A stretch of DNA of 64,000 bases from Dehalococcoidia bacterium (GTDB lineage Bacteria > Chloroflexota > Dehalococcoidia > DSTF01 > JACRBR01), in NCBI GenBank assembly GCA_040902535.1, contig JBBDXD010000022.1:68104-132103 (forward strand), given 5' to 3'. Position 1 is the stretch's first letter, and the number at the start of each line of letters is the position of its first letter. The notes beneath the pieces were generated by a model. The model did no database searches. It saw only the letters and a program-made list of their open reading frames with translations, and was not told the DNA's origin. This document shows positions 38,593 to 47,389 of this stretch, one piece after another. The translations under genes and the position numbers were made by a program.

Positions 38593-39447
38593 TCATGCAT
38601 GGATCTCGACGCGCGTCCCCGCCTCCGCGAAGAGCCAGAAGTACTGCGCATCGTGCAGTTGCAGCCCGACGCAACCGTGACTGGTTGCGGTGCTTCCGAA
38701 CACGCTTTGCGGGCGCCAGTAGTTGAGGTGCAACGCATCGCCCTGCTGGTCGTAGTACTGCGTGAAAAGCACGCGCTCGACGTCGTAGCGCGCCTGGGCG
38801 GGGTTGTAGCCCGCCTGCGCAGACGTCATGCGCTCGACCGCGATCCGTCCGTCCGGCTCGACGGCGTGCGAACCCAGTGGGCTCGGGAACTGCGGCGACC
38901 CGCTCGACACCGGCGCCGTGTAGATCGCCGCATCGCCGATCATCGCCGACGCGGTCTGCGTCGTGACGTTGACGTCGATCCACTTCTCCGCGCCCTGCGG
39001 GTCGCTCAGCGGCGATGCCTGGCCCGGCTGCAGGATGAAGAGGAACGCCGCATAGATGTACGTGCCATCGGTCAACTCGTACCAGGTCGTCGTCCAGTCG
39101 GGCACCGTCGGCACCCACGTCTGCGTCCCGACGAGCCAGTTCTCGCCCTGCACGGCGCGCGCGATGGTAACGGGCGTCAGGTCTTCGAGCGTGGCGACTT
39201 CGTCCGACTGCGTGGTCGGCGCGGAGCGCACGCGCACGTCGCCGCCAACGACGATCGCCGTGTTTTCACTGATCGCGGGCGTCGATGTCGCTGCGGGGAC
39301 GGGCGTAGACGTCGCGGGCACAGGCGTGCGGGTGGCCGTCGGCGGGATCGTGGGTGTCGGATCGGCGCCGCCGCTCGCGCAGGCGGCCAGCGTCATGGTG
39401 ATAATCGCAAGCGCGATCGCGGACGCGGGATGCCGACTGTGTGTCAT
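38593..39447 (-). CDS. L,D-transpeptidase lipoprotein
   Basis: A 284-residue exported protein. A signal peptide ends in the lipobox LAAC (Cys22), then a Pro/Thr-rich linker (to about 55), an SH3-like domain (GDVRVRSAPTTQSDEVATL), and a C-terminal YkuD catalytic domain ending in TATSHGCVGLQLHDAQYFW, which contains the HGC-type nucleophile. It crosslinks peptidoglycan stems at diaminopimelate 3-3 bonds or attaches lipoprotein; the wall is likely of the murein type. The consensus SHGCVRL has Gly in place of Arg. Confidence 0.9.
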   Translation of the reverse strand: MTHSRHPASAIALAIITMTLAACASGGADPTPTIPPTATRTPVPATSTPVPAATSTPAISENTAIVVGGDVRVRSAPTTQSDEVATLEDLTPVTIARAVQGENWLVGTQTWVPTVPDWTTTWYELTDGTYIYAAFLFILQPGQASPLSDPQGAEKWIDVNVTTQTASAMIGDAAIYTAPVSSGSPQFPSPLGSHAVEPDGRIAVERMTSAQAGYNPAQARYDVERVLFTQYYDQQGDALHLNYWRPQSVFGSTATSHGCVGLQLHDAQYFWLFAEAGTRVEIHA

Positions 39448-39493: not shown

Positions 39494-40462
39494 TCACGAG
39501 CGCTCCAGCACCTCGTCGACGATCCTGTCGCGCACCGACTCGGAATTGTCGATCGTGGTGTGGTTCACGGGTTTCAGGTCGCCGCCCTTGTCGCCGCTCT
39601 CCGGGCCTTGCTCGTCGCTCGCGTCCCAGTTCTCGACGTTCGGCGATTCGTAGGGTTCGCCGCTGAGCGTCGGGTCGTTCGATTCGTGGACGTTGAACAC
39701 CGGCACGACGTCCGGGCGCGAAGCCGTATCGCCCGTGTACAACTCGTCGACGCGATCGAGGTCCACGACGACGACGAATCGGTCGGCGTACTGGTCTTCG
39801 AGCCGCGCTGCGACGACGTCGGCTGTTACGGCGCCGTGGCTGTGCCCGACGATGGCGGCGCGCAGGCAGGGGTAGCGCTCCAGGTACACGCGCACGACAT
39901 TCGTCGTCCAGTCTTCCATGCCCGTGTGTACGTTCTGCGCGCCTGCCATGGCCGGCCCTGCGAGCACCGAGAGCGTGTCGACGCCCTCGTCGTCGTAGCG
40001 GTCCTGCAGGTCGCTGATGACCTCGCGGATGCCGGCGGCGCTGGCCTTGTCCTTCAGGTTCACGACGCCGCCGCCGACGCCGACGAGCAGCACGGGTTCG
40101 TCGCCCTGGTCGCATGAGACCTCGGCGGGTGAGAAGTAGCCGTGCGCAACCGCGTATTCCGGCTCGTCCGGCGCGTCCTCTGAGCACGCTTCGGTGTTCG
40201 GCGCCAGCGCGATATCGACGCCCAGCAGGAACTCGGCGTCCTGCTGGTCACGTTCGTCGTCGGCGTTGAAGTCGGGCAGTTCCCCCGGGTCCTGCGCGTC
40301 TTGCTCGTTGATCCGATCGTCGCCGTTGACATCGAGGCAGGCAATCTTGCTGAACGTCGCGCGGGGGGTCTTGGAGAGCCCCGTCGAGTCACAGGCGACG
40401 GCCGTCGCTGCGACGAGCATGGCGCAGAGTCCCGTGAGGTAGCAGATGTGCAAATTCTTCAT
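39494..40462 (-). CDS. Lipoprotein with dockerin-like repeats and alpha/beta-hydrolase-like domain
   Basis: A 322-residue exported lipoprotein (signal to lipobox VAC at residue 24). Residues about 40-85 carry two EF-hand-like/dockerin-like calcium loops: CLDVNGDDRINEQDA and PDFNADDERDQQDAEFL. The rest is an alpha/beta-hydrolase-like domain with the nucleophile elbow VGHSHGAV and the GVGGGVV strand; a charge-relay Asp may be VDLDRVDE and the His at KPVNHTT. A calcium-dependent surface lipase/esterase or protein-binding hydrolase is possible; dockerins usually bind cohesins, and no cohesin was seen here. Confidence 0.75.
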   Translation of the reverse strand: MKNLHICYLTGLCAMLVAATAVACDSTGLSKTPRATFSKIACLDVNGDDRINEQDAQDPGELPDFNADDERDQQDAEFLLGVDIALAPNTEACSEDAPDEPEYAVAHGYFSPAEVSCDQGDEPVLLVGVGGGVVNLKDKASAAGIREVISDLQDRYDDEGVDTLSVLAGPAMAGAQNVHTGMEDWTTNVVRVYLERYPCLRAAIVGHSHGAVTADVVAARLEDQYADRFVVVVDLDRVDELYTGDTASRPDVVPVFNVHESNDPTLSGEPYESPNVENWDASDEQGPESGDKGGDLKPVNHTTIDNSESVRDRIVDEVLERS

Positions 40463-41702: not shown

Positions 41703-41733
41703 TTGACAACTCCGGCACCCACGGGTGTATCAT
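41703..41733 (+). promoter_or_regulatory. Candidate promoter of A-B-C unit 1
   Basis: TTGACA (41703-41708) and TATCAT (41728-41733) are 19 bp apart. The same region before unit 2 (CTGACA at 43789, GATCAT at 43813) is one base shorter, so promoter and untranslated leader are part of the duplicated segment. Confidence 0.5.
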
Positions 41734-41984
41734 CGCTCCCCTGGCGCCGCAGCGCGTCGATCCCCCGGATGGCCGGAGGCGCCACCGCCGAGAGGAAGCG
41801 GAGGAGGCTGATCTCACGAAGAACATCCTTGCCTTTGCCCTGACCCTTGTGGTCCTTGCCGTCGTCTTCGCGGCGTCACACTGCCCCAACGATCCCGATT
41901 GCGGCCACCCTGGCGGCGAGTGCGGGAGCGACAGCGGCTGCGTGCCGGGGTTCGGCGGCATCGACGACACGCCACTCCGCTGCG
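41729..41984 (+). repeat. 256 bp near-identical duplicated segment, copy 1
   Basis: Matches 43814-44069 with two substitutions by direct comparison (at about 41934 and 41971). It spans the -10 element, an untranslated leader with a GGCGCC inverted repeat, a GGAGGAGG ribosome site and the first part of gene A1. The following sequence diverges strongly. Confidence 0.9.
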
Positions 41985-42649
41985 GCGGCGGTGGTGGAGG
42001 TGGTTCTGGACCGCCTGTCGCTACGGTCGTCATTCCAAGCCCCACGCCGACGCCCGTGCCGCAGCAAACACCAGTACCGCCCTTCAATTTTGTGCCTTAT
42101 ACCTTCAACAGCCCTAACTGCTCGGACAGCAGCCAGTATGTGGATCCTATCAACGTCATCTACGCGGAGAACGGCTCGTGGCCATCTGTTGAATCTCACG
42201 CTGGGCAGCACGGGGGTTGGAACAGCCACGATGGTAGCGAGCAGTGGTTTCAAGAACTCGACAATTGCTACCCCATGCACGGGCAGTCCGCGAGTGGGCC
42301 CAACTGGCAGTTTCCCGGGCGCTTTCACATGCGATATCGGCAGGGATCGAACTCGATTGCCGGGTACGGAATCATAAGCGTTGCCGACGCGCATCACGAG
42401 GATCTTGGCCAGTGCATCATAATGGGAATCGAAGTTCCGGCGCACGTCGTTGATCACAATTCCGACAATGCAGGCGAGAGCGGGTTCGACATGGGGAAGG
42501 AGGACATCATTCAAAACTGGGGTGTCGGCGGAACGGGCCACACTCCTCGCGATTACATATACCTCCGGAACATCATGCTCATGAAGCAGTGCGACCAAGC
42601 GTACTCTTGGGGCGATGGTTACGCCGTGATCGTCCCAATCCCAGACTAG
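41816..42649 (+). CDS. Family A exported Cys-rich protein, copy 1
   Basis: About 277 residues with no recognised family. The membrane/signal segment is NILAFALTLVVLAVVFAASHC, then a Cys-rich part (CPNDPDCGHPGGECGSDSGC), a glycine linker, a Pro/Thr linker, and a C-terminal domain of about 170 residues with conserved Cys and His (CSDSSQYVDP, HMRYRQG, MKQCDQAYSWGDGYAV). That domain aligns with gene A2: DP...G, Q.F....C, MH.R, P.H, LM.QC, DGY. The start is uncertain: no ATG/GTG/TTG lies between the ribosome site GGAGGAGG and the membrane segment, so a non-canonical CTC 41813 or ACG 41816 is proposed; GTG 41849 truncates the segment. Exported, role unknown. Confidence 0.6.
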   Translation, partial: TKNILAFALTLVVLAVVFAASHCPNDPDCGHPGGECGSDSGCVPGFGGIDDTPLRCGGGGGGGSGPPVATVVIPSPTPTPVPQQTPVPPFNFVPYTFNSPNCSDSSQYVDPINVIYAENGSWPSVESHAGQHGGWNSHDGSEQWFQELDNCYPMHGQSASGPNWQFPGRFHMRYRQGSNSIAGYGIISVADAHHEDLGQCIIMGIEVPAHVVDHNSDNAGESGFDMGKEDIIQNWGVGGTGHTPRDYIYLRNIMLMKQCDQAYSWGDGYAVIVPIPD

Positions 42650-42658
42650 GAGCGCGTT

Positions 42659-43330
42659 ATGAAACACTTGATGCCACTTGCGCTTCTGGCCGCGGCAGCC
42701 GTACTCGCTGCGCTAGCTGGAGCGGCCCGTCAGTTGACAATGGAGAGCGAAGGCTACGCCACGCTCTCGCCTTCACAGAGCTCGGCGGCGGAGGCTACCC
42801 AGTTCGACCAGTATCCCCTGTTTTGGTTGGGGGAGGCGTTCGACAATCTTCCGTTGGCCGCAGTGATCCGCGACCTGCGTTCAGACGATCCCACGTCCGC
42901 TGTTCCCACCGCAAGGGACGGATTCTATTTCGTATACGGTGATTGCACCGCGAGTGCCCACGGAGGCTGTGCACCGCCGCTTCAGCTATATGTCACCTTG
43001 AGGTGCTATATGCCGCCTGAGTTGCTTGACCCGGTAGGAATAACCAAGAGCCTTGGGGTGGCGCGCGGTGGGGCAGTGACTCTCGACATCTACGGTGACG
43101 TCACGATGTGGACTGGCGAGGTCTCCGTAACCATTTTCTCGTCGACGGATGAACTATCGGACAGGGCCATTGCAGCATTGGAGCCGGCGAATTTAGCAGC
43201 GCTCGGTTCGGACGCCACGAATGTTATTACGGGGTACGACGGCTTGCGGTCAAATCTCGCTCCACCGGGGAGTGGCAGTTGCGATCAGATCCAAGAGAGA
43301 GAAAGGTCTCGCGTCCCGGGTGTCGATTGA
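42659..43330 (+). CDS. Family B exported protein, copy 1
   Basis: A 223-residue protein with an N-terminal signal or membrane helix (MPLALLAAAAVLAALAG) and a domain shared with 44738 and 45720: YPLFWLGEAFDNLPL, then DGFYFVYGDC, GCAPPLQLYVTLRC, and a C-terminal ANLAALG-type end. The pattern FxFVYGxC...GC..PxQxxVxxC defines family B. It follows A1 after 9 bp with AGGAG in front of ATG, so it is cotranscribed. No known family recognised; paired cysteines suggest extracytoplasmic disulphides. Confidence 0.65.
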   Translation: MKHLMPLALLAAAAVLAALAGAARQLTMESEGYATLSPSQSSAAEATQFDQYPLFWLGEAFDNLPLAAVIRDLRSDDPTSAVPTARDGFYFVYGDCTASAHGGCAPPLQLYVTLRCYMPPELLDPVGITKSLGVARGGAVTLDIYGDVTMWTGEVSVTIFSSTDELSDRAIAALEPANLAALGSDATNVITGYDGLRSNLAPPGSGSCDQIQERERSRVPGVD

Positions 43331-43351
43331 TCGCACGCCAGATCTCTCGGC

Positions 43352-43630
43352 ATGAAGAGCGCATTCATCGTTTGCGGCGGTGTCTTGGCAGTGGTTGGCG
43401 CGTTCGGCGCTTTTCAAGCGCTCATACAAATGTGGCCAAACTTCCACGACCAGTTGGCGGGTACCTTTCTCCTCAGTTCGTTCGCCCTCATCGGTATCCT
43501 TACCACCGTTCTGGCGCGACGTGCCGCCTGTACCGATTTCGGGCGCCGAACGACGACCATTCTTTCTGGCGCTGTGTTTGCTTTTCTCTTCCTTCAGGGT
43601 GCTGCTCTCATCTTTCTCACCCATGCTTAG
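43352..43630 (+). CDS. Family C small membrane protein, copy 1
   Basis: A 92-residue protein with three predicted membrane helices (residues 4-24, 38-55, 68-88). Helices two and three align loosely with genes at 45358, 46577 and 47062 (FALIGILTTVLARR, then TTTILSGAVFAFLFLQGAALIFL), but it lacks their C-terminal N-x-C...PG...C tail. Follows B1 after 21 bp without a clear ribosome site. Family placement is tentative. Confidence 0.5.
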   Translation: MKSAFIVCGGVLAVVGAFGAFQALIQMWPNFHDQLAGTFLLSSFALIGILTTVLARRAACTDFGRRTTTILSGAVFAFLFLQGAALIFLTHA

Positions 43631-43810
43631 CGAGGCGAATCGGCGTTGGACTACGCTGGCGATCACGCCCCATCGCACTGACGAGATCATCTCTCGCGCA
43701 CATAGTGTAGCGAGCGGCGTATTGTCGCCCCGGCAGACCCATATTCTCTGATCATGTTCGAATCAGTACACAAAAGAGAATCTCGCTCCTGACAACTCCC
43801 GCCCGTACGG
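43631..43810. other. Gap before A-B-C unit 2
   Basis: 180 bp without a supported gene. It is visibly richer in A/T (for example ATATTCTCTGATCATG near 43741) and ends in the CTGACA-18 bp-GATCAT promoter-like element of unit 2. Confidence 0.4.
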
Positions 43811-43813
43811 GTG

Positions 43814-44069
43814 ATCATCGCTCCCCTGGCGCCGCAGCGCGTCGATCCCCCGGATGGCCGGAGGCGCCACCGCCGAGAGGAAGCGGAGGAGGCTGATCTC
43901 ACGAAGAACATCCTTGCCTTTGCCCTGACCCTTGTGGTCCTTGCCGTCGTCTTCGCGGCGTCACACTGCCCCAACGATCCCGATTGCGGCCACCCTGGCG
44001 GCGAGTGCGGCAGCGACAGCGGCTGCGTGCCGGGGTTCGGCGGCATCGACGACACCCCACTCCGCTGCG
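43814..44069 (+). repeat. 256 bp near-identical duplicated segment, copy 2
   Basis: Equivalent to 41729-41984 with two substitutions (GCGGGAGC versus GCGGCAGC, and GACACGCC versus GACACCCC). Covers promoter end, leader, ribosome site and the N-terminal region of gene A2, after which similarity is only at protein-motif level. Confidence 0.9.
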
Positions 44070-44725
44070 ACGGCGGCGGCGGCGGTGGGGGTGGTGGAGG
44101 CGGCCCGGCATCTACTCCCACGCCTGTCATCGATGCCGGATTCCGCGCCTTCGGCGGAGAGTTCAGCTACAACGACGACTGTACTCAGCGGATCGACCCT
44201 GTGACGATGATCATAAGGTACGACGGAACTAACGCCGAGGAGCACTTCATTCACCATGGAGTTACCGTAAAGACGGGTGGACTCCAGCACTTCAGGGATT
44301 TCGAAGCCTGCGTCGAAGGGGAGTACAGCACGGCTACTAACGACGGACAGACGAATTGCGGACCGCTCCCATTTCCTTGTGGTGCGGAAGCGCGCATGCA
44401 TGTCCGGTGCAATGTCGTGGGTTCAGCGCCAGATACGCACGGCGGCACCTTCGCGAGTTGTACGCCTCATTTCGACGAGGCCGTGACCTGTCGTGGAATT
44501 CCCAAACACGCGATTCCTGACCAAATGGGAGATAGGTGGCCGGGTCTCAACCCGACGAGCTCAGGGTTCAGTGCGGGGCGAGACTACTTCCATTGGGTCA
44601 TGGTCCAGGAGGGCGGGCATGCCTTCATCGCCAGTAGATGGTGGGGCAACGTTCATCTGATGAGCCAGTGCAACGGTTGGTGGACTGGAAGTGACGGTTA
44701 CGTCAATCATATCGACGGTAGTTAG
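43901..44725 (+). CDS. Family A exported Cys-rich protein, copy 2
   Basis: About 274 residues and a paralogue of 41816. The N-terminal 75 or so residues are almost identical (membrane segment, Cys-rich part), the glycine linker is longer, and the C-terminal domain is diverged but keeps RIDPVTMIIRYDGT, QHFRDFEAC, RMHVRCNV, PKHAIPDQ, NVHLMSQCNGWW and GSDGYVNHI. A GTG at 43811 is in frame but has no ribosome site and sits on the -10, and copy 1 has no start there, so the same non-canonical start (ACG 43901 or CTC 43898) is proposed. Exported; function unknown. Confidence 0.6.
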   Translation, partial: TKNILAFALTLVVLAVVFAASHCPNDPDCGHPGGECGSDSGCVPGFGGIDDTPLRCDGGGGGGGGGGGPASTPTPVIDAGFRAFGGEFSYNDDCTQRIDPVTMIIRYDGTNAEEHFIHHGVTVKTGGLQHFRDFEACVEGEYSTATNDGQTNCGPLPFPCGAEARMHVRCNVVGSAPDTHGGTFASCTPHFDEAVTCRGIPKHAIPDQMGDRWPGLNPTSSGFSAGRDYFHWVMVQEGGHAFIASRWWGNVHLMSQCNGWWTGSDGYVNHIDGS

Positions 44726-44737
44726 GAGCTCAACGAG

Positions 44738-45367
44738 ATGAGGAATTGGGTGAAAACCATCTCGCTGGGCGCGACGTTCTGCATCTCGGCGCTGGTCGGT
44801 TGGTCTGTTGTTGACCCGCTTGGCCAAACCGTGAGCGGTACCGTGGTGTCGGCCGACGACCCGGAATGCAGCGACAAGGTACGTGCGTACGACGATCATG
44901 CACTCGTCTATTTGGGCAACGAGTTTGAAGGATTGCCGCTCCTGACCTGCCAGGCCCCGTACTTTCCCGCGACGGACTACGGCATTCCCGAGACGCGATT
45001 CTTCGCGTTCGTTTACGGATGTCTTCCACTCGCCGACGAAGAACGCGAAGGCTGCACTGCGGATGTGCAAGTCACGGTGTTTCCCTGCGATGGACCGGAT
45101 TTGGCGGACGAAGTGACCGAGCGCGCAAATCTCAACATTCGCGGCGCTGGTGCCTCGAGGAAGCATGACGGCTCGATCTACATCAAGGGTGCGACCGTCA
45201 ACGTCATGATCTCAACAGGCAGGCACACCGAGGACGCCAAGAACCAGGCAGAACGCGCGGCGCATGCGCTCATAGGTGCGAATGCGCTTTCGGCCGCCTT
45301 TGACGAGTCCGACTCCTTCTCGGATGTCGAGAAGATCAAGCCGGGAGCGAACGACGTGTGCAGCTGA
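44738..45367 (+). CDS. Family B exported protein, copy 2
   Basis: A 209-residue protein with an N-terminal hydrophobic helix (ISLGATFCISALVGWSVV) and the family B domain: HALVYLGNEFEGLPLLTC, FFAFVYGC, EGCTADVQVTVFPC and ANLNIRGAGASRKHDGSIYIKG. Starts 12 bp after A2 with AGGAG, like A1-B1. Ends DVCS, overlapping the start of the next membrane protein gene by 10 nt. Confidence 0.65.
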   Translation: MRNWVKTISLGATFCISALVGWSVVDPLGQTVSGTVVSADDPECSDKVRAYDDHALVYLGNEFEGLPLLTCQAPYFPATDYGIPETRFFAFVYGCLPLADEEREGCTADVQVTVFPCDGPDLADEVTERANLNIRGAGASRKHDGSIYIKGATVNVMISTGRHTEDAKNQAERAAHALIGANALSAAFDESDSFSDVEKIKPGANDVCS

Positions 45368-45729
45368 AAGTCATCGCGCTTTCGTCAATGCTCGCGGTGC
45401 CCGCCTTTCTGTTGGCGGCGATCGTCACGATGCTGTTCCTCTCCGCGGTTTGGGCAATTTATGGCGCCACTTCTCCGTCGGAAGAAGGTCTGCGGATACT
45501 GGTCGCCTGGTCGGTCACCGCGGCGACGGTTGTGCTGTCTCTGTCCGTTCTCATAGGCGGGACTGCGCTCTTTGCGGCGCGGCTTCGCTTGAACCGCTTC
45601 GCCGCGATATCCGCCGCCGGTTTGCTCTGGGGGTTGACCCTTCCTTTTCTCCTGGGGTACCTCACGTTCTTTAACGGATGCGGCGTCAATGTCAGTGTGC
45701 CGTACCCCGGCACACCCGCGTGTTCGTAG
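45358..45729 (+). CDS. Family C membrane protein, copy 2
   Basis: A 123-residue protein with three helices (residues 7-30, 46-65, 77-98) and a C-terminal tail FFNGCGVNVSVPYPGTPACS with two cysteines. The pattern R-L-N...A..AGL - helix - N-x-C...PG...C is shared with 46577 and the broken gene at 47062. GTG start overlapping the end of B2; its own stop overlaps B3, suggesting translational coupling. Confidence 0.6.
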   Translation: MQLKVIALSSMLAVPAFLLAAIVTMLFLSAVWAIYGATSPSEEGLRILVAWSVTAATVVLSLSVLIGGTALFAARLRLNRFAAISAAGLLWGLTLPFLLGYLTFFNGCGVNVSVPYPGTPACS

Positions 45730-46580
45730 CCGGGTTGCGCATCGCGCGCACGATCGGCATCGCGCTCGGCGCGTCCTTCGCGGGCACCAGCGTGATCGTT
45801 GGTACCCTCGCGGCATACGGCCTGCTTGTGTATCCGCTTCCGTACGACACACCCAGATCCGCGATCTTCCTGCTGTCGATGATCGTGCTTGCGATCATGG
45901 TCGCCGCGATCGCCAGCTCCATTAACCGAATGGTTGCTCCTCGACGGCGACCCACATCCCTGCTTGCGATGCTTGCTGTCCTTATGATCGGATTCGCGGT
46001 TGGAAGCGGAGGAGCGAACGCGCTTTATGGCATGCTGTCTGGCGATAGCGCAGAGGCCGGCCTTGCGTCGGCGCTCGCCTGCGAGCAAGATGCATCCATG
46101 TTTATTGGTTACCCTCTGGTGTATGCGGGGCGAGAGGTCTTGGGCTACGAACTCCAGGGCTGTCGTCGCGAGAAGACACCTGATCTCTTTGCTCCGGATG
46201 GAACCCTTTATCACGCCGCAACAGATTCGTTCACGTTTGTCTACGGGCGATGCCAGATACCCGAGGGCGTGCGATCGTGCCCCGTCCCGGTCGCGATCAT
46301 TGTCTACCCGGCATGCGAGGAACCGATCTTCCCAGGAGTGATCACCGGAACAGTCAAGGTTCGCGGCGCACCGGCATACGTGAAGAACGACGGATCGCTT
46401 CGTCTTGAACTGCCAACGCATACCCTGACGATTTACGGCCCGGGATCGACATTTGTTGAACGACAGGGCAACGCCAGGGCGATCGCTGGCCTGCTCGTAC
46501 CCGCAAATGAACTTGCGTCGGCGCTCACGGCCCAATCGCCGCTGTCGACAGCATTGGGGCCGGCAGCCGTGTGTCCATGA
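45720..46580 (+). CDS. Family B protein fused to a multi-helix N-terminus
   Basis: A 286-residue protein. Three helices (about residues 14-38, 47-66, 82-100) precede a family B domain: YPLVYAGREVLGYELQGC, DSFTFVYGRCQIPEGVRSC, PVPVAIIVYPAC, GTVKVRGAPAYVKNDGS and a closing ANELASAL. GTG 45720 (in frame, overlapping the C2 stop) is preferred to ATG 45678 inside the upstream gene. This is the only B copy with more than one helix. Confidence 0.6.
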   Translation: MFVAGLRIARTIGIALGASFAGTSVIVGTLAAYGLLVYPLPYDTPRSAIFLLSMIVLAIMVAAIASSINRMVAPRRRPTSLLAMLAVLMIGFAVGSGGANALYGMLSGDSAEAGLASALACEQDASMFIGYPLVYAGREVLGYELQGCRREKTPDLFAPDGTLYHAATDSFTFVYGRCQIPEGVRSCPVPVAIIVYPACEEPIFPGVITGTVKVRGAPAYVKNDGSLRLELPTHTLTIYGPGSTFVERQGNARAIAGLLVPANELASALTAQSPLSTALGPAAVCP

Positions 46581-46951
46581 CGCTGCTTCGGTCCGCAGGC
46601 GCAGGGGGCCTGGCGTTCGCCGGCGGCCTCCTGGCATTCATCATCGCCATGATCGTGATCTGGGTGATTGCCTCGCTTTCATACGATTGGACTGAGAGTC
46701 TCAGTCGCGACATACGCACAACGCTCGCGGTGGGTACGGTCGTCGCGGCCTGTTTGGCCGCTGTGGCATGCTTGCTGTTCGTCAGCCAGCAAGCCTCCGC
46801 CCGGCTGAACGCGAACGCACTGGGCTCGCTGTTCGTCGCCGCCGTCCTCGCGGGCCTCATCTTCTACCAATTGTTGGAGATTCTCAGCGAGACGAACGCC
46901 TGCATGTGGGATGTCGGGGTTCCGTTGGATCGGGAGTGTTGGTCGAAATAG
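46577..46951 (+). CDS. Family C membrane protein, copy 3
   Basis: A 124-residue protein with three helices (residues 12-35, 53-75, 84-104) and the tail NACMWDVGVPLDRECWSK. The ATG overlaps the stop of the fused B gene (ATGA); GTG 46571 is the alternative. Conserved with 45358 at RLNANALGSLFVAAVLAGL and N-x-C...C. Presumably makes a membrane complex with the B partner; inference only. Confidence 0.6.
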   Translation: MTLLRSAGAGGLAFAGGLLAFIIAMIVIWVIASLSYDWTESLSRDIRTTLAVGTVVAACLAAVACLLFVSQQASARLNANALGSLFVAAVLAGLIFYQLLEILSETNACMWDVGVPLDRECWSK

Positions 46952-47061
46952 AGCATGCTCGGTTCCGCGTCTTCAGAACCATCCGCGGCGGCGTCGCTTA
47001 CTGGTAGCTCGATATTGACGTGCGGTGTACGATCGCCTTCACGTGGCGACAGAGGATCCAG

Positions 47062-47389
47062 ATGAAGATCTTCGTGGTAACGCCCGATCCTCGCGGTTTT
47101 CAATGGCGAGAGGGCATGTTCGCGGGCGCCCTCGATGCGAACACGTCCGACAACGCGGTGCGCACGTACAGCACGGCTGTCTTCGCGCTGGTGGGCGTCT
47201 CCGGTGCAGCGCTCGTCGCGACGGCCTATGTTCGCGCGTCGCGTGAACGGATACGCGATGGCAGCCGGGCTGATTACACTGGTTTTACTTGGCGTAGTCT
47301 TCACGTACGCCGCCTGGATCGTTGCCGTCGTCAACGAGTGCTCGTTTGACTATGCGTTTCCCGGAGGCGGCGAGGGCTACTGCCGCTGA
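47062..47389 (+). pseudogene. Family C membrane protein, frameshifted copy 4
   Basis: Reading from ATG 47062 gives a soluble start and one helix (STAVFALVGVSGAALVATAYVR), then runs out of the family pattern. A second frame from about 47243 restores VNGYAMAAGLITLVLLGVVFTYAAWIVAVVNEC and the PGGGEGYC tail, as in the other C genes, ending at TGA 47387-47389. A one-base shift near 47235-47245 joins them. Either a decayed gene, an assembly error, or a short 49-residue protein restarted at GTG 47243. Confidence 0.45.

Follow-up and report, generated by a model that had tools for sequence, protein, structure and literature searches.

A recurrent gene cassette for predicted exported and membrane proteins, arrayed between rlmN and maoC in a Dehalococcoidia bacterium

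A run of unrecognised open reading frames separates rlmN from a maoC gene in this Dehalococcoidia genome (3.18 Mb, 28 contigs), which raises the question of what kind of system these frames encode and how they came to lie there. Translation of the open reading frames of the window, by which is meant the whole 64,000-nucleotide stretch of DNA that was analysed, revealed nine plus-strand frames in the rlmN–maoC interval in the order A-B-C, A-B-C, B-C, broken C, as the initial annotation had described. A single, N-terminal hydrophobic stretch is present in A1, A2, B1 and B2, and several are present in B3 and the C frames; the products of all three kinds look exported or membrane-bound, as was originally supposed. 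The overlaps between B2 and C2, C2 and B3, and B3 and C3 are each 10 nt, an arrangement that fits the translational coupling that had been proposed for them, and the last of these becomes 4 nt if C3 starts at an alternative ATG at 46577. The features of the interval are as follows.

41703..41815, + strand: promoter-like region read from the sequence, with TTGACA at 41703-41708, TATCAT at 41728-41733 and a spacer of 19
Within 41703..41815, + strand: 5'UTR of A1, with GGAGGAGG at 41800-41807; promoter-like region and 5'UTR both recur upstream of A2
41729..42003, + strand: near-identical 5' module, copy 1, 275 nt, 98% identity to 43814-44088
41816..42649, + strand: A1, predicted secreted protein remotely related to LssY_C, 277 aa, start inferred as ACG
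42659..43330, + strand: B1, predicted membrane-anchored extracytoplasmic protein, 223 aa
43352..43630, + strand: C1, 92 aa, about three predicted TM segments, named C by position only
43814..44088, + strand: near-identical 5' module, copy 2
43901..44725, + strand: A2, 274 aa, paralogous to A1, with ACG as its putative start
44738..45367, + strand: B2, 209 aa
45358..45729, + strand: C2, polytopic, 123 aa, two-Cys tail, overlapping B2
45720..46580, + strand: B3, 286 aa, three or four N-terminal TM segments followed by the B domain, overlapping C2
46571..46951, + strand: C3, polytopic, 126 aa, two-Cys tail, overlapping B3
47020..47389, + strand: C4, remnant of a frameshifted C gene, with a change of frame between its TM part and its Cys tail

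The relationships between copies were examined by shuffle tests. The exported domains of A1 and A2 are homologous (51/156 residues identical, or 33%; z 9.8), as are B1, B2 and B3 mutually (z 8.8-17) and C2 and C3 (z 7.6), while the tail of C4 resembles C3 only if read across the frameshift (z 5.3). The three families of the initial annotation are thus upheld for A and B, and C2, C3 and C4 are related, but C1 falls outside, since its similarity to C2 and C3 is undetectable (z about 0). On sequence grounds, C denotes a shared position and topology and is not a proven family. The motifs that had been assigned to the families are also looser than claimed: FVYG is present in B2, with C directly after it, but B2 has HALVYLG rather than YPLxYxG, and in the N-x-C...PG...C tail of the C proteins the PG is found in C2 and C4 but is missing from C3. 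A fusion of C and B was considered as an origin for B3 and rejected; its N-terminus has no similarity to C2 or C3, and scores no better against C1 (z 3.0) than against SecY (z 2.8).

None of the array proteins was named by any model in Pfam, NCBIfam, PHROGs or PADLOC. The view that they are unrecognised therefore holds for curated libraries, but not for A, which is remotely related to LssY_C (PF14067) via bridging sequences, namely homologues of A in genomes G041, G071, G013, G543 and G657. In profile-profile comparisons the bridge matched LssY_C with P 9e-7 (score 46.5, compared with 20.3 or less in 100 column shuffles) and cassette A with P 1.5e-25, whereas direct comparison of cassette A with LssY_C, without the bridge, was non-significant (P 0.028). 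Comparison of the whole A family with LssY_C gave P 4e-6 and 0.0012 in two runs with different settings. At the PF14067 cut-off of 25 bits there was no match to A1 or A2, the best relative reaching 13 bits, and the A relative of G071 matched the Pfam model with E 0.08 over about the first 30 positions only. On the strength of these comparisons A is taken to be a remote relative of LssY_C, and not a member by Pfam's standard. The alignment is collinear over the domain, and both have an R-x-H-hydrophobic-R motif and a late DG motif with hydrophobic residues after it. The LssY_C domain is attached to a multi-pass membrane protein, whereas A1 and A2 carry no hydrophobic segment beyond the N-terminal one; the window A protein appears to be secreted as a separate protein, with an N-terminus rich in Cys, whereas the LssY_C proteins that were fetched have, by reading, hydrophobic membrane segments and no Cys-rich region. 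PF14067 itself was found in 0 of 41 genomes of the class that were searched and in 3 of 151 genomes of the phylum sample, and a literature search for LssY_C and LssY returned no related title among the matches listed, as judged by title. AlphaFold modelling of A (five sequences) gave no usable model (pLDDT 30). As a separate observation, an A domain of G013 (L084:4019-5362, minus strand) is linked to a dockerin type I domain (E 4e-8); between the two lies a weak cohesin-like stretch.

A1 and A2 have in common a near-identical promoter-leader tract of 300 nt. The 275-nt block shared by them spans the 5'UTR, the signal peptide and the Cys-rich N-terminus, and includes 87 identical noncoding bases. 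The first 56 residues of the two proteins are identical, compared with 33% identity in the exported domains; identity ends abruptly at a polyglycine run and drops also upstream of the promoter. The block was found in only two places in this genome and in none of the other genomes of the order that were searched, and is most simply explained if promoter and leader were recently copied, or carried over by gene conversion. There is no ATG, GTG or TTG start in the leader common to A1 and A2, for which the best-fitting start is an ACG (41816 and 43901), preceded 8 nt upstream by the strong Shine-Dalgarno-like GGAGGAGG; a GTG at 43811 provides an open alternative start in the A2 copy only. The promoter-like region of A1 is absent from the list produced by the promoter scan because its spacer exceeds the accepted range. 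A regulatory RNA in the identical 5'UTR was considered and rejected, since folding was no better than that of shuffles (z +1.36), and a search of the 5'UTR against Rfam gave no match.

The occurrence of the cassette in other genomes was examined next to that of its separate members. A search of the class sample (393 genomes, E 1e-5) found A in 12 genomes and B in 23. Loci were then found by searching with A alone, a procedure that avoids the bias of choosing them through B, and a count by hand revealed a same-strand B neighbour at 11 of 17 A loci, comprising two in the window, two in G014, and one each in G050, G337, G181, G227, G313, G180 and G657, the last of which lies outside the class. 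Four further A-B pairs (G075, G298, G342 and G352) were found beside B genes with refined profiles, bringing the pooled adjacency to 15 of 21 loci in 13 genomes and six families, window included, although not all of these loci are independent, some genomes being close relatives (G313 and G180, for example, represent one genus). Co-occurrence in related genomes, which the initial annotation had put forward as a check, is therefore borne out for A and B, and there is good support for a conserved A-B cassette of exported proteins. Since the neighbouring genes vary between families, the cassette appears to have been gained and lost as a unit. Gene order is B-C-A in G181. B frequently occurs without A, and A occurs without B at six loci, in one of which (G141) the contig ends where B would be expected. 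In G543, also outside the class, the C-terminus of the protein after A can be aligned to the B-like C-termini found in G657 and in G015, at a level below the HMM threshold, and homologues of B are also present in MAGs named Actinomycetota and Thermoleophilia.

Two minor observations concern these loci. Genes with a phosphopantetheine site (acyl-carrier-like) lie beside the cassette in G014 and G181 (L065, L066, L072); L065 and L072 have a GNAT gene as well. A +1 shift splits the A gene both in G050 (L070:1432-2089) and in G227 (L073:526-1207), at sites within about 10 codons of each other; the shift in G050 coincides with CTT TGA, known as the slip site of prfB, and indel errors provide a simple alternative for both.

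Frames following B were sought with a scan that accepts any open reading frame with at least two hydrophobic stretches in the 700 nt downstream of B. At 11 loci (L065, L066, L069, L070, L072, L075, L076, L083, L100, L101 and L110) it found frames of 92-147 aa, predicted to have 2-4 TM segments, no more than 112 nt after B; two of these loci, L069 and L083, have B-C without A. The scan gave no frame after B in L067, L068, L073, L074, L082, L102, L103 and L098, longer frames only in L071 and L099, and in L104 a frame 304 nt away from B that looks like a low-complexity artefact. Similarity between C frames of different loci is strong only within genomes or close relatives, with the exception of G050 and G181 (z 6.6), and signals between C2 or C3 and the C frames of G014 or G012 are weak. 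C as the third partner of the A-B cassette is moderately supported.

Selection was estimated in lineages other than that of the window, whose genome has no close relative that carries the array. Between G313 and G180, the one species pair behind the A estimate, dN/dS is 0.036 for A and 0.048 for a gyrA-like neighbour, and reaches 0.104 in B and 0.459 in C; the values for B and C are 0.203 and 0.407 between G075 and G342, and 0.253 and 0.599 between the two copies within G014. The diversification suggested in the initial annotation thus applies to C (0.41-0.60) but not to A, which is constrained like the gyrA-like gene; from these sequence comparisons A looks like the conserved core of the cassette and C like its flexible part. 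The window paralogues A1 and A2 have nonetheless diverged to about 33% identity. Fast evolution of C, taken together with the A-B-C layout followed by B-C and a broken C, the joining of an identical leader to diverged exported domains in A1 and A2, and the B-C loci without A, would be expected of an effector-immunity locus, with A as a secreted toxin or bacteriocin that targets other cells, B and C as the producer's protection, and the additional B-C pairs as orphan immunity genes. However, toxin or immunity domains were found in none of Pfam, NCBIfam, PHROGs and PADLOC, A1 and A2 represent one family rather than swapped domains, and the constraint on A between close species equals that on the gyrA-like gene, so that such a locus is considered unlikely.

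The model of B1 (pLDDT 69.6) has MucB (6in9), which like RseB regulates anti-sigma factors from outside the cytoplasm, as its top fold match, albeit a weak one (E 0.11, prob 0.84, TM 0.28). No match to MucB/RseB or to any other Pfam family was obtained for the 14 members of the B alignment and six further B proteins. In G657 and G015 the B domain is C-terminal in a longer protein, the N-terminal part of which may, by reading, be LolA/RseB-like; the window B proteins differ in having no such N-terminal part and no sequence match, and no anti-sigma gene was read between rlmN and maoC. B might be a MucB/RseB-like envelope sensor that signals via C or a nearby regulator, with A as its ligand or as the protein monitored. 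Besides the fold match, this explanation draws on LuxR-type HTH genes, of which G075 and G313 each have a small one immediately upstream of A and G337 a weaker case, and on genes of G657 that read as a sigma and an anti-sigma factor, divergent from A-B. The weakness of the fold match counts against it, as do the lack of a regulator gene in the window array and of any match between B or C sequences and a regulator family, and a sensing role is regarded as improbable. Other matches were set aside: a DUF3992 protein (PDB 9t3p) shares a 35-residue match with the GCxxPLxI...C region of B (E 0.033), but this is short, driven by Cys and Pro and does not extend over the domain, and was treated as chance, while matches to antibody chains in the PDB are short or due to Gly/Pro runs.

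With respect to the origin of the array, rlmN and maoC are separated by only 103-154 bp, with no array, in six of six relatives examined (G001, G003, G004, G005, G006 and G007). The array measures 5.7 kb and has a GC content of 0.607, compared with 0.656 in its surroundings, and its GC3 values are 0.61-0.80, compared with 0.86-0.93. The short gap in the relatives and the low GC of the array indicate that it was probably inserted between rlmN and maoC, rather than lost from the relatives. Ends of a mobile element were not apparent, the flanks sharing no 9-mers, direct or inverted; phage and plasmid origins were likewise rejected, as searches of viral contigs gave no relatives of A or B and a search of plasmids gave no relative of A. 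The coding scores of the array genes are low, which makes weak expression or decay possible, and the array could conceivably be a decaying island, the genes of which arrived together, are now little expressed and have no role in this organism. The frameshift in C4, the want of a standard start codon in A1 and A2, the coding scores and the atypical GC3 are all in keeping with such a state. Conversely, eight frames are intact over 5 kb, their overlaps are exact and purifying selection acts on this cassette where it occurs in other lineages, which leaves decay with a low probability.

The reading that we prefer, to which about an even chance is given, is that the array is an acquired operon, amplified in place, for an exported membrane complex. 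The signal peptide would take A across the membrane, where its LssY_C-like domain would carry out the main extracellular function, whether by catalysis or by binding a ligand. B would be held by a membrane anchor at its N-terminus (in B3, three or four helices) with its Cys-containing domain displayed outside, and might serve as a tether, receptor or folding partner of A; C, small and polytopic, would make up the rest of the complex within the membrane, and B and C would be made through coupled translation. The extra B-C pairs may have arisen by duplication, with A2 having received or kept a copy of the A1 promoter-leader. The physical A-B-C complex, the division of labour within it and its biochemical activity are what we infer from the above, as are the direction and number of events of array gain or loss.

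Among described systems no match was found for the A-B-C cassette, the best-conserved part of which belongs remotely to a known domain family. It is proposed tentatively, and at somewhat less than even probability, that A-B-C constitutes an undescribed exported membrane system of Chloroflexota, in which a secreted LssY_C-like enzyme is held by two accessory families, and which is gained or lost as a unit and amplified locally. Three kinds of unrecognised protein frame have in this way become a conserved, testable gene cassette, and LssY_C, an unexplained domain, gains a distant, secreted branch that has a recurring genetic partner. The relatives without the array offer a natural comparison, and the complex, if real, would be a component of the Chloroflexota cell envelope that has yet to be described.

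Two exported proteins are encoded on the minus strand on the rlmN side of the array. The gene at 39494-40462 of the window, adjoining rlmN, encodes a secreted lipase-like protein (Lipase_3 E 0.0025, below the cut-off), and four of the six relatives that were examined have a lipase-like gene next to rlmN. The product of 38593-39447 is an L,D-transpeptidase (YkuD E 3e-13), likewise exported, that includes an SH3-like region.
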